This document shows positions 827-8,900 of a stretch of DNA of 26,647 nucleotides, piece after piece. Source of the stretch: a virus; the IMG/VR virus record IMGVR_UViG_3300007234_000075, positions 1-26,647 of that record; one strand, 5' to 3'. How positions within the stretch are numbered: position 1 is the stretch's first letter; the number at the start of each line of letters is the position of its first letter. A model generated the notes under the pieces. The model saw only the letters and a list, made by a program, of their open reading frames with translations, was not told the origin of the DNA and ran no database searches. The translations under genes and the position numbers were made by a program.

Positions 827-1081
827 TTACTGTCCTGTATATAATGACTGATATTCTGTTTCACCAGTTGTGTCTAATGCGGAAAACAATCCACCTTGTC
901 TAGGTGTCATTAAACTTACTTTACCAGCCTGTCTTCTTTTTTCTGCCAGTGCGGCTTTTCTTCTCTCTTTTTCCGATTTTTCTGCCGCTTCGGAAGCAGA
1001 TTGATCTGCTAATTTTTTTTGAATTGCATATTGCTCTTCTGCCGAAGGCATCGCTGGTGCTTTAGGAAATATTCCTCCCAT
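827..1081 (-). CDS. Small conserved-type phage protein, charged coiled-coil, unknown function
   Basis: An 84-residue protein, MGGIFPKAPAMPSAEEQYA at its start, with a long Ala/Glu/Lys/Arg-rich middle (about residues 14-50) likely to be helical or coiled-coil, and a short Gly-rich end containing TPRQGGLFSAL. Its ATG overlaps the stop of the upstream poly-proline gene as TAATG, which points to translational coupling, and its own stop is two bases before the portal start. Small proteins opening MGG(I/L)F and rich in charge often sit near portal genes in marine podoviruses, but I do not know a function. A head-assembly or scaffold-like role is possible from position and composition; that is inference only. 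Confidence 0.75.
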   Translation of the reverse strand: MGGIFPKAPAMPSAEEQYAIQKKLADQSASEAAEKSEKERRKAALAEKRRQAGKVSLMTPRQGGLFSALDTTGETEYQSLYTGQ

Positions 1082-1440
1082 TAGTATCCTCCTCCTCTCA
1101 ATAAGCCCAATATAGTTTGTGCCGCTGATTGTGTTGGTTGTAATAAATTTTTTCTAGTACCACCTATCTGTTCTTCTGCTGTTTCTTCCACACCCAACGG
1201 AGCAGTAGGTCGTATCAATACACCTCTACCTCTCGCAGATTTTTCTAGAGCTCTACCTGTGGTTCTCGTAACCGTTGGTTCCGGAGCAGGTGCTGGAGGT
1301 GGGGGTGGTGGGGGTGGTGGTGGAGGTGGTGGGCTTGGTCTGCCTCCCATCATCTGTACCACTGGTCCCGTGTATTGAGATGAAATTTCTTCAACGATGT
1401 TGAAATCCTTATCCCAAACTATTTTTGAATAAATTTTCAT
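1081..1440 (-). CDS. Poly-proline protein between terminase and portal, unknown function
   Basis: A 119-residue protein with three parts: a folded-looking N-terminus (about residues 1-30, MKIYSKIVWDKDFNIVEEIS), a run of 13 consecutive prolines followed by APAPEP (about residues 38-56), and a basic then Gly-rich C-terminus ending LLRGGGY. The proline codons are mixed (CCA, CCC, CCT), so the run is maintained at protein level and is not a simple nucleotide slippage tract. Such a run stalls ribosomes and would need elongation factor P of the host. The gene follows terminase after an 80-base gap and couples to the next gene by TAATG. I do not recognise a family; a virion or packaging accessory role is suggested only by position. 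Confidence 0.75.
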   Translation of the reverse strand: MKIYSKIVWDKDFNIVEEISSQYTGPVVQMMGGRPSPPPPPPPPPPPPPAPAPEPTVTRTTGRALEKSARGRGVLIRPTAPLGVEETAEEQIGGTRKNLLQPTQSAAQTILGLLRGGGY

Positions 1441-4779: not shown

Positions 4780-4800
4780 TGCCTAGTCCTTTTGTTTACA

Positions 4801-4856
4801 GCACAACGTAAGTCTTATTTGATTTGTAGAGGATAAAACAATACGTTACGTTGTGC
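4801..4856 (-). promoter_or_regulatory. Leader hairpin, 11-bp perfect stem
   Basis: GCACAACGTAA (4801-4811) is the exact reverse complement of TTACGTTGTGC (4846-4856), with a 34-base loop. With the promoter at 4864-4894, the transcript would start near 4858, so the hairpin would form the very 5' end of the mRNA, about 20 bases before the start codon of the first gene. It may protect the mRNA, control access to the ribosome site, or be a dyad protein-binding site. Confidence 0.6.
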
Positions 4857-4863
4857 TTGTTTA

Positions 4864-4894
4864 TACTTATAGTTTCATTTTATGCCTTTGTCAA
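4864..4894 (-). promoter_or_regulatory. Sigma-70-type promoter for the terminase cluster
   Basis: On the minus strand TTGACA (4894-4889) is followed after exactly 17 bases by TATAAG (4871-4866), five of six matches to the -10 consensus. The -10 continues as TATAAGTA, which also resembles the T4-late-like box seen elsewhere in the window. It faces the gene starting at 4779. Confidence 0.6.
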
Positions 4895-4917
4895 GCCTAA
4901 ATTGCCTTAAGTAAAAA

Positions 4918-4968
4918 TATTTATACAAACTCAAAAAAATATGGTGTCTTTTTGAGTTTGTATAAGTA
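4918..4968. promoter_or_regulatory. Mirrored divergent promoter-like element (17-bp inverted repeat)
   Basis: TTTTTGAGTTTGTATAA reads on the plus strand at 4949-4965 and on the minus strand at 4937-4921, a perfect 17-bp inverted repeat with an 11-base spacer. On the minus strand it runs into TATAAATA (4925-4918), the octamer found before other late genes; on the plus strand into TATAAGTA (4961-4968). This places a mirrored pair of late-promoter-like boxes, one facing the terminase cluster, the other facing the structured RNA region. The arms also could form a hairpin in RNA, but no T-run follows on either strand as a terminator would need. Confidence 0.5.
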
Positions 4969-4969
4969 T

Positions 4970-5690
4970 ATGTGATTAGGCAGACACAGGCATATAAATT
5001 TCTCAATAGGCAACATAGCAACAGCAAAATTGGTAAGAGTTTAACACACCCTCTAAATTGTGTAGATGAGTTGCAATCTAAACTGTTAGGCAAGGACAGT
5101 ATAAACAAATGGGCAGTGATGCTAACAGGAGTTGGACACTCTCTTGTTGGATATCAATAACTATACCTTTAAGGTCGCAACGATTCACCTTGTGTTATTG
5201 ATACTGGAAGTCGGACACTGGAAACAGGAACGTAAGATATGCAATACCCTTTACGTTTAAATGGTTGGATGTTGTGAATGCTGTGAGGAGTTCTTTTGGT
5301 TTTTTACTAAAAGTGCTCTTGCCAACTACAGCAAAAAAAGAAAAGGTGATGAGCGAGAGCGATATCACTGATTGGCTTTGCCAATCATACACTGTATCAC
5401 ACAGCCCAGAAATAATTCATTTGTACAATATCTAAATAAATACTGATGAGTTCGAATTGGCAGTTTCTCTTATATAAAGTCATCAAATTGCACTGCGAAC
5501 TCAATGAGTGGCACAACTACTCCCTATTGCCTAGTTAATGGTTGTGCAATTCAGAGCAGGGGTAATCTCCTACGATTTGTATGTACTAATAAAAGTCGTG
5601 ATTTATCCCTGCTCATTTACCATTAGGTAAATACTGTGTGGGTCGAAGTTTCCTATGCCATATTTTACTCCGGCCCACGCACAGTATGAA
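4970..5690 (+). ncRNA. Candidate large, highly structured phage RNA
   Basis: About 0.7 kb between divergent genes has no convincing reading frame but many complementary segments. Helices I can pair by eye include 5124-5130/5142-5148, 5152-5161/5194-5203 (10 bp perfect), 5228-5235/5251-5258, 5262-5268/5322-5328, 5286-5290/5316-5320 with 5293-5300/5306-5313, 5346-5350/5364-5368, 5369-5376/5380-5387 (8 bp, 3-base loop), 5447-5454/5496-5503, 5511-5517/5541-5547, 5554-5565/5603-5614 with inner 5571-5578/5593-5600, 5616-5621/5626-5631, and 5632-5645/5671-5686. The segment 5114-5118/5216-5220 may close a multi-way junction. Several helices contain G-U pairs on the plus strand (for example 5562-5606, 5298-5308, 5643-5673) that would be C-A mismatches on the other strand, so a plus-strand RNA is indicated. 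The last helices abut with 0-1 base between them. Size and layout recall ornate phage RNAs such as GOLLD and ROOL, but I cannot confirm a family. Exact ends are unknown; the 5' end is placed after the promoter-like box at 4961-4968. Confidence 0.65.
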
Positions 5691-5973
5691 AGAATCCAAG
5701 TTTTTCCAAAAATTACAAGAGATAGGACTGCGTATGGAACACGTGCCCAGCACCAAAGGTATGTCACGAAGAAGACCCACTTCATCACAATATTCAAAAG
5801 AATGCAAGTACTGGGACAGATTTCAAAGCCAAAATGGTAGCGTATGGAACTTGTATCGAATATATCCTATCTGTGATGATATCAGAGATTGCGGAAAACC
5901 ACACATACACACTTGGTCTAAACCTCGACAAGAATGGTATTCTCGTTGTCAACAGTGTAGTAAAAAATATTAA
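5686..5973 (+). CDS. Small zinc-finger-like protein on plus strand, downstream of the structured RNA
   Basis: A 95-residue basic protein if started at ATG 5686 (a GTG at 5638 in frame lies inside a helix of the RNA and is unlikely; ATG 5734 has a better Shine-Dalgarno, AGGA six bases before it, giving 79 residues). The C-terminal third has C63-X5-C69, H73, H75 and C88-X2-C91, with a WSKPRQEWYSR segment between, a pattern suited to binding one zinc ion. C40 is an extra cysteine. Such small zinc-ribbon proteins often bind DNA or RNA, but I do not recognise the family. It lies opposite to all late genes and its stop codon overlaps the tail-fibre stop by two bases, so the two genes converge with no room for a separate terminator. 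It may be co-transcribed with the RNA upstream. Confidence 0.65.
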   Translation: MKESKFFQKLQEIGLRMEHVPSTKGMSRRRPTSSQYSKECKYWDRFQSQNGSVWNLYRIYPICDDIRDCGKPHIHTWSKPRQEWYSRCQQCSKKY

Positions 5974-8900
5974 CTTAGAGCGTAGTAAGGCATCACGTAT
6001 TCTGTGCCGTTGATCTTGAATTGAGCATAACCCACCAATGATCCCGCAGAGCCCTGTGTGTCCACAAGGAAGTCAATGTTGTAGCCTGTTCTCGCTTCAA
6101 TTCTCAAATCCGAAGATGAGGATTGAGATCTCAATCGAGTGTACCATAAACTCACTCCACCTATCACGTTTTCTAGACTGTTAGAGCTGGTATAAAAACC
6201 ATATGTTTTAGAGGCACTTGCTGTGGCTCCAGTATTCAAATACACACCGTATTCATTGGTAATGCTGGTAGTTCCAGTCATAGAAGCATCCATTGTCATT
6301 GGTTGCCAATGATAACCATACAGACTGCTTATGTTTGCTGTGGAGCCTGAATCCATATATGATATATGACCCACCCTGACACCAAACATATTACTATAAG
6401 TTGTGGTATTATTGGCTCCCTCACTTGGTCTAATAAACACACCTCCGGCCATTGCGTGTACAGCATAGACAGAGTTAGAAGCACTGGCTCCTGTGTTTTT
6501 GATCGTGGTATAGAATGCTTGTTGTGGTCCCGATCCAAATGATCCTGTGCTCCAGTTGTATCCTGCAAGATCCACATCCATAGTGTTGTGCTGTCTTACC
6601 CTGTTACTAGCAGTCACGTTGCCTGCCAGCGTGATCTCTGTCATCGTTGCGTTGGGATAGATATTGCCTGATTGCACATCTGCCGCAGTGTTTACATAAC
6701 TTCTCTGTGATCCCACGTTGGCCGCAAATGCTCCCGAGAATGACATTGTGCCATCTGACACGTTTCCGATGTAGATGTCTCCCGTAGGAGTTGCTCCATT
6801 GATTCTTAATATGTCATTGCTTCGTATAGGTTTAATCACGTTGTCAGCGATTGTGATAGCATCTGTTGAGATATCACCTGTGATTGAAATATTTCCTGTG
6901 CCTGTGATGTCGTTAGAATTTAGATCTAAATTGCCACCCAATTGAGGTGTTGTGTCTTCTACCACATTTTCAAGATAAGTGCCCAAATCTGAAATGTTGC
7001 TTTCTGTTATAGTGATTGTGTTGGAAGCGGAATTGATAGTTTTGTTTGTGAGTGTTTCTGATCCATCCAATGTAGCAAAATCAGCATCTGACAGAGCTGT
7101 GTTGAACTGTGCGATTGTGCCTGTCAGTGTGTTGGATGACAGATTAACAGTTTTGTTGGTCAGTGTATCTGATGTAGATGCTGTGATATATGAACTTAAA
7201 TCTGGTCCTGTGATTGTTAATGTGTCACCGCTCACTGCTGTGGTAATACCTGTGGCTCCAGCGAATTTGAATATCTCACCTAGATCTACACCTGTGCCTG
7301 TTGAGTCATCTCCCACGAATGTGATTGGATTCAATACATTAGATATAGCACTCGCATCGATGGTCAAAGTGTCCCCAACCACTGCGGTTGTAAGTCCATT
7401 AGCACCAGCAATTTTAAATGTTTCACCCGTGTTTAATGTAGCACCTGTGGAATCATCACCCACGATAGTTATTGGTGAATTTGTGATGTAGCCCTGTGAT
7501 GTTACATATGATTGCGTAGCATACGAGCTTAAATCGGGTCCTGTAATAGTTAATGTGTTGCCCGACACTGCTGTTGTAATATTAGTGCTACCTAAAAATT
7601 GAATAGAACCACCATCAGGTATTGCTGTGCCTGTGGAATCATCACCTAATATAGTAAATCCTAACGCACCTGCTCCACTGCCCCAACTTAAATTGCCAGC
7701 ACCATCTGTCTGTAATAATTGTCCAGCACTACCATCGGCATTAGGCCAATAGTTGTTATCTAAAAGAATTTTGCCTGTGCCTTTAGGTTTAATTTGTATA
7801 TTAGCATCTGTTGCACCAGCATCAATTTGGATGTATGCATTGGTTTCACCAGTTGGATAACCTGTAGTTAATTGTAATGCTTGTAGACTAGTTTCTCTAG
7901 ATTTGATATAACCAGTACCTCCCGATTTTTGATAACCTATTGTTACAGTGTTGGAACCAAAATCAATCTGTCCAGATCCTGCCGCAAGTCTAACATTAGC
8001 ATCTCCTTGTATAGTAGTAGAACCACCAGCATTATTATTTGCAATAGTACCTGTATCTCCAGCAATAGAAAATAATTCGTTGTCTCCAAATTTTACTGTG
8101 TTGTGTAGATTAATTTCTCCAGTGCCGTTTGGATCAATAGTTACATCACCGTTGGTAACACTGCTAGTGATTGTATCTATCTCTCCATGGTCATACCACT
8201 GGAGAGTACCGGAACTGTCTGCTGTTTTTAATATTTTTCCTGCTGATGGATAAAGAGTCGGATAAAACTGTCTTGAAGTCGGCCATTTAATATAATCAAT
8301 ATATACATGATTACCGGTGTCCCCATAATCAGTACTATATGGAGCCGGTCTCAGATGAATTCCAGAAGTACTTCCAGCTTTATCCCCTCCAAGTATTATC
8401 TCACTAGAAACATACGATGTACCTGTTTTAGGATACCAACTTTTATGACTAATTTTAGAATGTCCAGTATTACTATCACCGCTACCCGCAGAAGGTCTTC
8501 GATTAGATATTTCAAATCCCTCTCCATCAAATATACCCAATTGTATGGCTGGTTCATCACCTAGTCCCGAACCAATATTACTAACTTTACGGCTAGTAGA
8601 TAATACTATTTTGTTCTTTTCACTGCCCCCACTACCATCTACATCAGATTCTATTTGGAGCAGACCTCCACTGGTTGTTGCCATAACACCACTAGTATTA
8701 AAAGCAAAATTTCCTAATGTTGATCCTGATGGTAAAGTTCCCCAACCTAAATTGCCCGCACCATCTGTAGTTAACACTTGACCGTTGCTACCATCTGCTT
8801 GAGGCCATTTTTGTCCTTCAAATACTAGATTGCCTGTTCCGCTGGCTGTTAATGCTAAATCTCCATTTGTGGAACCATTGCCAATGCTGTTGATGTTTAT

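Follow-up and report, generated by a model that had tools for sequence, protein, structure and literature searches.

Does the gap between the late genes of this uncultivated phage encode a structured RNA and, if so, is it one of the large phage RNAs that are already known? We analyzed a stretch of 26,647 nucleotides, positions 1 to 26,647 of the IMG/VR virus record IMGVR_UViG_3300007234_000075 (the window; all unlabeled coordinates refer to it). The original prediction described about 0.7 kb without a convincing gene (4970–5690) that carries at least twelve helices on the plus strand, runs opposite to the surrounding late genes and has a promoter-like box at its 5′ side, and suggested a member of the GOLLD or ROOL RNAs, or a new class. 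The observation is confirmed, as the helices are present and the region folds beyond chance on the plus strand. The interpretation is partly supported: a phage-encoded, structured plus-strand RNA is strongly supported and a new class fits, whereas membership of GOLLD or ROOL was tested and no match was obtained, and the extent and the promoter were overstated. The conserved RNA (5040–5395, plus strand) belongs to a family that is absent from Rfam 15, and its base pairs have been kept by compensating mutations in at least fifteen distinct phage sequences of different kinds, so that it must do its work as an RNA.

Genomic context and folding of the region

The window carries the late genes of a T7-like podovirus on the minus strand, including a terminase, a tail fibre with a T7 tail-fibre N-terminus and a major capsid protein. 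The best-ranked phage records for its terminase are only about 24–26% identical, the first being Synechococcus podoviruses. An ORF with a run of about 13 prolines (1081–1440, minus strand) lies between the portal region and the terminase. The RNA is located between the 3′ end of the fibre gene (5970) and the GNAT-terminase operon (start 4779) and reads in the opposite direction. No convincing gene covers 5040–5620, and a conserved protein read through the core is also argued against by the covarying stems and frame-shifting indels.

The predicted pairings are in the sequence. A search for complementary segments recovered 5152–5161/5194–5203 (10 of 10 pairs), 5447–5459/5491–5503 and 5554–5565/5603–5614 (92%, with G-U pairs), and the minimum-energy fold contains the stem around 5293–5313 and the stem 5632–5645/5671–5686. 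The 721 nt fold at −213.1 kcal/mol, compared to −173.6 ± 4.6 kcal/mol for dinucleotide shuffles (z −8.5, 0 of 20 shuffles), whereas the reverse complement gives a z of only −1.5. When the region is divided, 5030–5400 has a z of −2.9 on the plus strand and −1.0 on the minus strand, 5436–5690 has −8.1 and −5.0, respectively, and 4780–5030 folds equally on both strands. Thus, the energy signal comes mostly from the 3′ half, while the evolutionary signal described below comes from the 5′ half. The long helix that closes the 5′ half of the minimum-energy fold is probably wrong, since it uses the strands of two conserved, covarying hairpins (H1 and H2).

The region is not a single 0.7-kb unit. The conserved part extends from H1 (5044) to a pair of tandem hairpins (5346–5386). 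The following domain of several hairpins (5436–5620) is very stable (z −6.4 on plus and −3.4 on minus), but is known only here and in L004, a 98% identical relative (contigs and loci are denoted by L numbers). Its start, TAAATACTGATGAGTTCGAA, resembles TAAATACTGTGTGGGTCGAA at 5628, as if duplicated. A TAAATA box and a hairpin (5633–5642/5674–5685, within 5628–5685) immediately precede the start codon of ORF 5686–5973 on the plus strand. The same layout, with different but complementary stems, recurs before a small ORF in L051, L037, L009, L011 and L055, and this hairpin (5633–5685) belongs to the ORF rather than to the RNA. The ORF encodes 95 aa with a C-terminal CxxC and is probably a small zinc-binding protein, as inferred from sequence alone. 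It has a weak match to HNH_repeat of Pfam below the cut-off (E 0.009, 16.8 bits against a cut-off of 26), and an AlphaFold model was not usable (pLDDT 52). Homologues are found at the same place in L004, L051, L009 and L011 (18–29% identity for those in L051, L009 and L011). This fast-evolving protein, which ends in a WYSRCxxC-like motif, is kept together with its box and hairpin across different RNA types.

Upstream of the RNA, an AT-rich hairpin (4917–4969) lies between the divergent late-gene promoter region and the leader. It is self-complementary, matching itself on the minus strand at 83%, and a similar hairpin-like sequence was seen by eye upstream of the RNA in L037, L038, L040 and L051. 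The leader (4975–5035, plus strand) contains AGGC repeats (4978, 4988 and 5008) and the box AGGCAACATAGCAAC; 2 to 5 AGGC copies precede the RNA in 14 of 15 members. A sigma70 scan of the upstream 200 nt gave strong sites for L031 (TTGACA-18-TATAAT) and L040, moderate ones for L030/L035, L041 and L033/L034/L036, and nothing above chance in the window, L051, L038, L045 and L046. The promoter-like box of the window is not supported, since 31 of 100 Markov-shuffled controls score as well. On the minus strand, TTGACA-N17-TATAAG (4868–4896) reads away from the RNA into the GNAT-terminase genes, and L051 has TTGACA-N17-TATAAT at the same place (read by eye). Boxes of the type TATAAATA, like T4-type late promoters, lie shortly upstream of late genes on the minus strand (4925, 11006, 22586 and 23739). 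However, their number in the window (6 copies) is close to what base composition alone would give.

Homologues and covariation of the conserved core

A terminase search identified contigs with a 54% identical terminase that carry a diverged copy of the RNA (L028 and L029; 68–75% identity over 106–285 nt), with the RNA pointing the other way relative to the terminase. Motif scans of viral contigs extended the family to about 16 contigs: the window and a contig identical to it over 9.5 kb, L004 (nearly identical to the window), L030, L031, L033 (equal to L029), L034, L035, L036 (equal to L028), L037, L038, L039, L040, L041, L045, L046 and L051, corresponding to 15 distinct sequences without the near-identical copies. 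The last two scans mostly returned known members, so this collection appears nearly exhausted for these motifs, although more diverged members are missing because homologues were found by searching for sequence motifs of the family. Of the other pattern hits, L042–L044 and L047–L049 share one sequence that looks like a helicase gene, and L050, L052 and L053 are chance matches. Two exact-pattern scans of 84,980 prokaryote genomes found no copy, and blastn of five members against 50,697 phage records gave chance hits or none. L038, L039 and L041 encode tail fibre J-like proteins and are hence siphovirus-like, while L046, in which a portal-like protein was found, has a podovirus-type head-tail adaptor; the RNA has crossed between phage groups.

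Covariation among homologues and better folding than shuffled controls had been set beforehand as tests of the RNA. An alignment of the 15 distinct sequences (A4) was made by MAFFT without knowledge of structure. In this alignment 81.0% of cells pair, compared to 33.6–45.1% when partners are slid by 1–3 columns, and the covariation score is 0.312, compared to 0.139 ± 0.014 in shuffles. Changes on both sides are observed in 23 of 41 pairs and 71 cells. None of 500 shuffles reaches any of these values; the number of further pair types is the one measure that 18 of 500 reach. Relatedness inflates the shuffled comparison, but the slid control keeps relatedness and still separates widely. The structure was written down from L036, which favours it over slid versions on cells paired, but the double changes do not come from that. 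A covariance model (R1) finds all members at E<1e-44, although nearly all were used to build it.

The core begins with hairpin H1 (5044–5048/5059–5063), which has a conserved loop CCCUCnnAU and compensatory changes, followed by H2 (5065–5067/5076–5078), in which the same pair occurs as A-U, G-C and C-G. H3 (5082–5086/5096–5100) has a conserved loop UAGGCnAGG, is 100% paired in the alignment with one pair as U-A, A-U and C-G, and is followed by the conserved single strand UAUAAACAAAUGRGCAGU. The arms of the helices were also read by hand in 14 distinct sequences. H4 (5122–5131/5141–5150) pairs in 108 of 112 cells with double changes at 7 of 8 pairs. H5a (5152–5161/5194–5203), the 10-bp helix of the original prediction, pairs in 112 of 112 cells with double changes at all 8 pairs, and H5b (5177–5180/5190–5193) pairs in 49 of 52 cells with double changes at 4 of 4. 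The invariant GGAAGUnG and a small hairpin H6 (5218–5220/5225–5227) lie within 5206–5255, together with H7 (5231–5235/5251–5255), which has the near-invariant loop GAUAUGCAAACCCU and pairs in 69 of 70 cells with all 5 pairs covarying; two helices of this segment were also recovered in the alignment. H8 (5288–5297/5309–5318), with a conserved 3′ side ACUAAAAG, pairs in 77 of 80 cells in the 8 sequences scored.

The loop of H5b (5183–5188, AUUCAC) pairs with a segment after H7 (5274–5279, GUGAAU), forming a pseudoknot. This helix is paired in 83 of 84 cells, with 8 distinct versions and all 6 pairs covarying. None of 2000 permutations reaches the values of H4, H5a, H5b or the pseudoknot. The complement lies at the same relative place in all 15 distinct sequences, although single sequences are individually only weakly significant (p 0.008 to 0.41). 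In contrast to the variable stems, the segments UAGGCnAGG, UAUAAACAAAUG, GGAAGUnG, GAUAUGCAAACCCU and ACUAAAAG hardly change, which is the pattern of a folded RNA with functional loops. By nested minimum-energy folding the core alone is only modestly better than shuffles (z −2.9 in the window and −1.7 to −3.1 in four members), so the case rests on comparison and not on energy.

The tail consists of tandem hairpins H9 and H10 (5346–5386), for which perfect stems of differing sequence were found in 12 of the 14 loci with this type of core (type A) that were scored by script. The H9 stem in the window, L036, L034, L046 and L012 seems to hold symmetric tandem G-A mismatches capped by a small, in part GNRA, loop.

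Other structured sequences at the same locus

In relatives with the same gene order, the same place and orientation carries other sequences: type B in L009 (1990–2350, minus strand) and L010/L011 (L011 7500–7800, minus strand), with z of −6.2 and −6.8; type C in L012 (1940–2300, minus strand; z −8.2); and type D in L055 (344–700, minus strand; z −3.7). No Rfam match was found in L009, L011 and L012, where this was tested. Model R1, run without filters, detects no relation to type A in L009, L018 or L055, and only a weak full-length match in L012 (7.6 bits, E 0.011 for 901 bases), which we retain as a hint. Nevertheless, these loci share with type A the leader box and/or the tandem tail hairpins. 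The tail of L012 is 89% identical to that of L051 over 46 nt (E 1e-10), and the layout recurs in the unlike cores of L009, L011, L012 and L055. Types A and B share the box AGGCnACATAGCA, and the box AGGCTACATAGCA also precedes the unrelated core of L009 and L011. The more distant L018 (7060–7400, minus strand) has AGGC repeats and CAATATAGCAAC followed by a stem-rich stretch (read by eye), near a tRNA-Lys (7678–7753, minus strand), and is possibly a fifth core type. With one or two sequences per type, the structure of types B to D rests on folding energy and a few compensatory changes, and these may be either very diverged forms of one RNA or the result of exchange of the core.

A more far-reaching and tentative reading is that the interval between the tail-fibre gene and the terminase operon of this phage group is a dedicated slot for interchangeable structured RNAs. 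In this view, at least four unlike cores (types A to D, perhaps a fifth) would be swapped as cassettes among phages, as expected of RNA-based counter-defence or host-takeover effectors in an arms race.

Interpretation and comparison with known RNAs

We interpret 5040–5395 as a plus-strand gene for a non-coding RNA about 350 nt long in the window. The analysis demonstrates ten short hairpins and a pseudoknot kept by compensatory mutation, with fixed loop and junction sequences, in phages of at least two tail types, and the identity of this element as an RNA is near certain. Gene order gives support for a further step: in seven of the fifteen distinct loci (L033, L034, L035, L036, L040, L041 and L046) no convincing gene follows on the same strand, the first one 3′ of the RNA being on the other strand, so the RNA most likely acts in trans and not as a leader of one gene. 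The remainder is inference, including transcription itself. The RNA would be transcribed apart from the late operon and fold into a compact scaffold whose conserved unpaired segments (UAGGCnAGG, AAAUGRGCAGU, GGAAGUnG and GAUAUGCAAACCCU) form the binding or active surface, and would bind a host or phage factor during infection. We assign this trans-acting binding role a probability of about 0.6. Because the same slot carries other structured sequences in close relatives and this RNA moves between unrelated phages, the likeliest role is host takeover or counter-defence under pressure to change; however, counter-defence in particular is only a tentative suggestion, as it rests solely on the swapping pattern.

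Other explanations are less likely, but are not equally weak. An RNA-only assembly (cage or multimer) of the GOLLD/ROOL sort, made late in infection and extending in the window to 5620 with a variable 3′ part, would agree with the phage origin, the many short helices, the pseudoknot, the strong folding of 5436–5690 and the attachment of a variable outer domain to a conserved one, an arrangement also found in GOLLD (PMC12286853). We consider it unlikely, since no GOLLD or ROOL match was obtained, no tRNA neighbours were found in the member loci scanned, the conserved part is only about 350 nt and the 3′ domain is missing in all members but the window and L004. A cis-acting leader controlling ORF 5686–5973 appears less likely still. 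This ORF follows the RNA in the window, L004 and L051, its relatives follow the other cores in L009 and L011, and L030, L045 and L039 have other small ORFs after the RNA, but the seven loci in which no convincing gene follows on the same strand are not explained and the ORF has its own TAAATA box and start-codon hairpin.

A mobile element, such as a ribozyme, an intron-like element or a guide RNA working with an HNH-type nuclease, is similarly doubtful. L031 encodes an HNH endonuclease (5733–6203, plus strand; E 9e-28 in PHROGs) directly 3′ of the RNA on the same strand, the window ORF has its sub-threshold HNH_repeat hit and the RNA occurs in unrelated phages. However, HNH is found in only one of about 16 loci, no group I, group II or HEARO match was detected, no interrupted gene was found around the intergenic RNA, and no conserved terminal repeats were noticed, albeit without a formal test. 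The hairpins could also be DNA elements without RNA function (terminators, or a replication or packaging site). Since 5436–5690 also folds on the minus strand and 4780–5030 folds equally on both, those parts may be DNA elements or terminators, but for the core this is very unlikely, as only the plus strand folds, the conserved loops are strand-specific and a covarying pseudoknot with fixed loops is an RNA trait.

Undescribed RNA families with a pseudoknot and this much covariation are uncommon, and long phage RNAs such as GOLLD and ROOL have remained without a function. A compact family found in two kinds of phages, in a slot where relatives carry other structured sequences, gives a tractable system that is small enough to probe and solve and has natural variants that can be exchanged. 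If the swapping reflects an arms race, it would point to structured RNAs as a general class of phage effector. We found no description of this RNA in the open literature searched, which leaves out most subscription papers.

Long structured phage RNAs are already known as a kind (GOLLD and ROOL, PMC12286853), and the present RNA is a separate family. Rfam 15 gave no match at gathering level in the window and 10 member loci, and at permissive thresholds only spurious microRNA/snoRNA-type and similar weak hits, with no GOLLD or ROOL match at E<=10 in 4780–6000. No tmRNA or RNase P RNA was detected by ARAGORN or Rfam, and no tRNA was found in the window or the member loci scanned. GOLLD is likewise a large structured RNA of phages and prophages, of unknown function, with one conserved and one variable half (PMC12286853), but many of its members exceed 800 nt, compared to about 350 nt for the conserved part here, which is not beside tRNAs and of which no copies were found in prokaryote genomes. 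ROOL shares occurrence in phages and prophages, multiple pseudoknots and the lack of a known protein partner (PMC12286853), but its covariance model does not match and our RNA is not beside tRNAs. HEARO or IscB-type guide RNAs and group I introns are structured RNAs that can be followed by an HNH gene, as in L031. However, neither their Rfam models nor the conserved catalytic core of group I introns were matched, there is no RuvC-HNH protein and no adjacent IscB/IsrB ORF, the ORF next to the RNA in the window being 95 aa, and the RNA lies between complete ORFs in the window and other loci rather than interrupting a gene. Small phage regulatory RNAs, in general, are also stand-alone RNA genes in phage genomes and probably trans-acting like this one, which is much longer and pseudoknotted, with many fixed loops.
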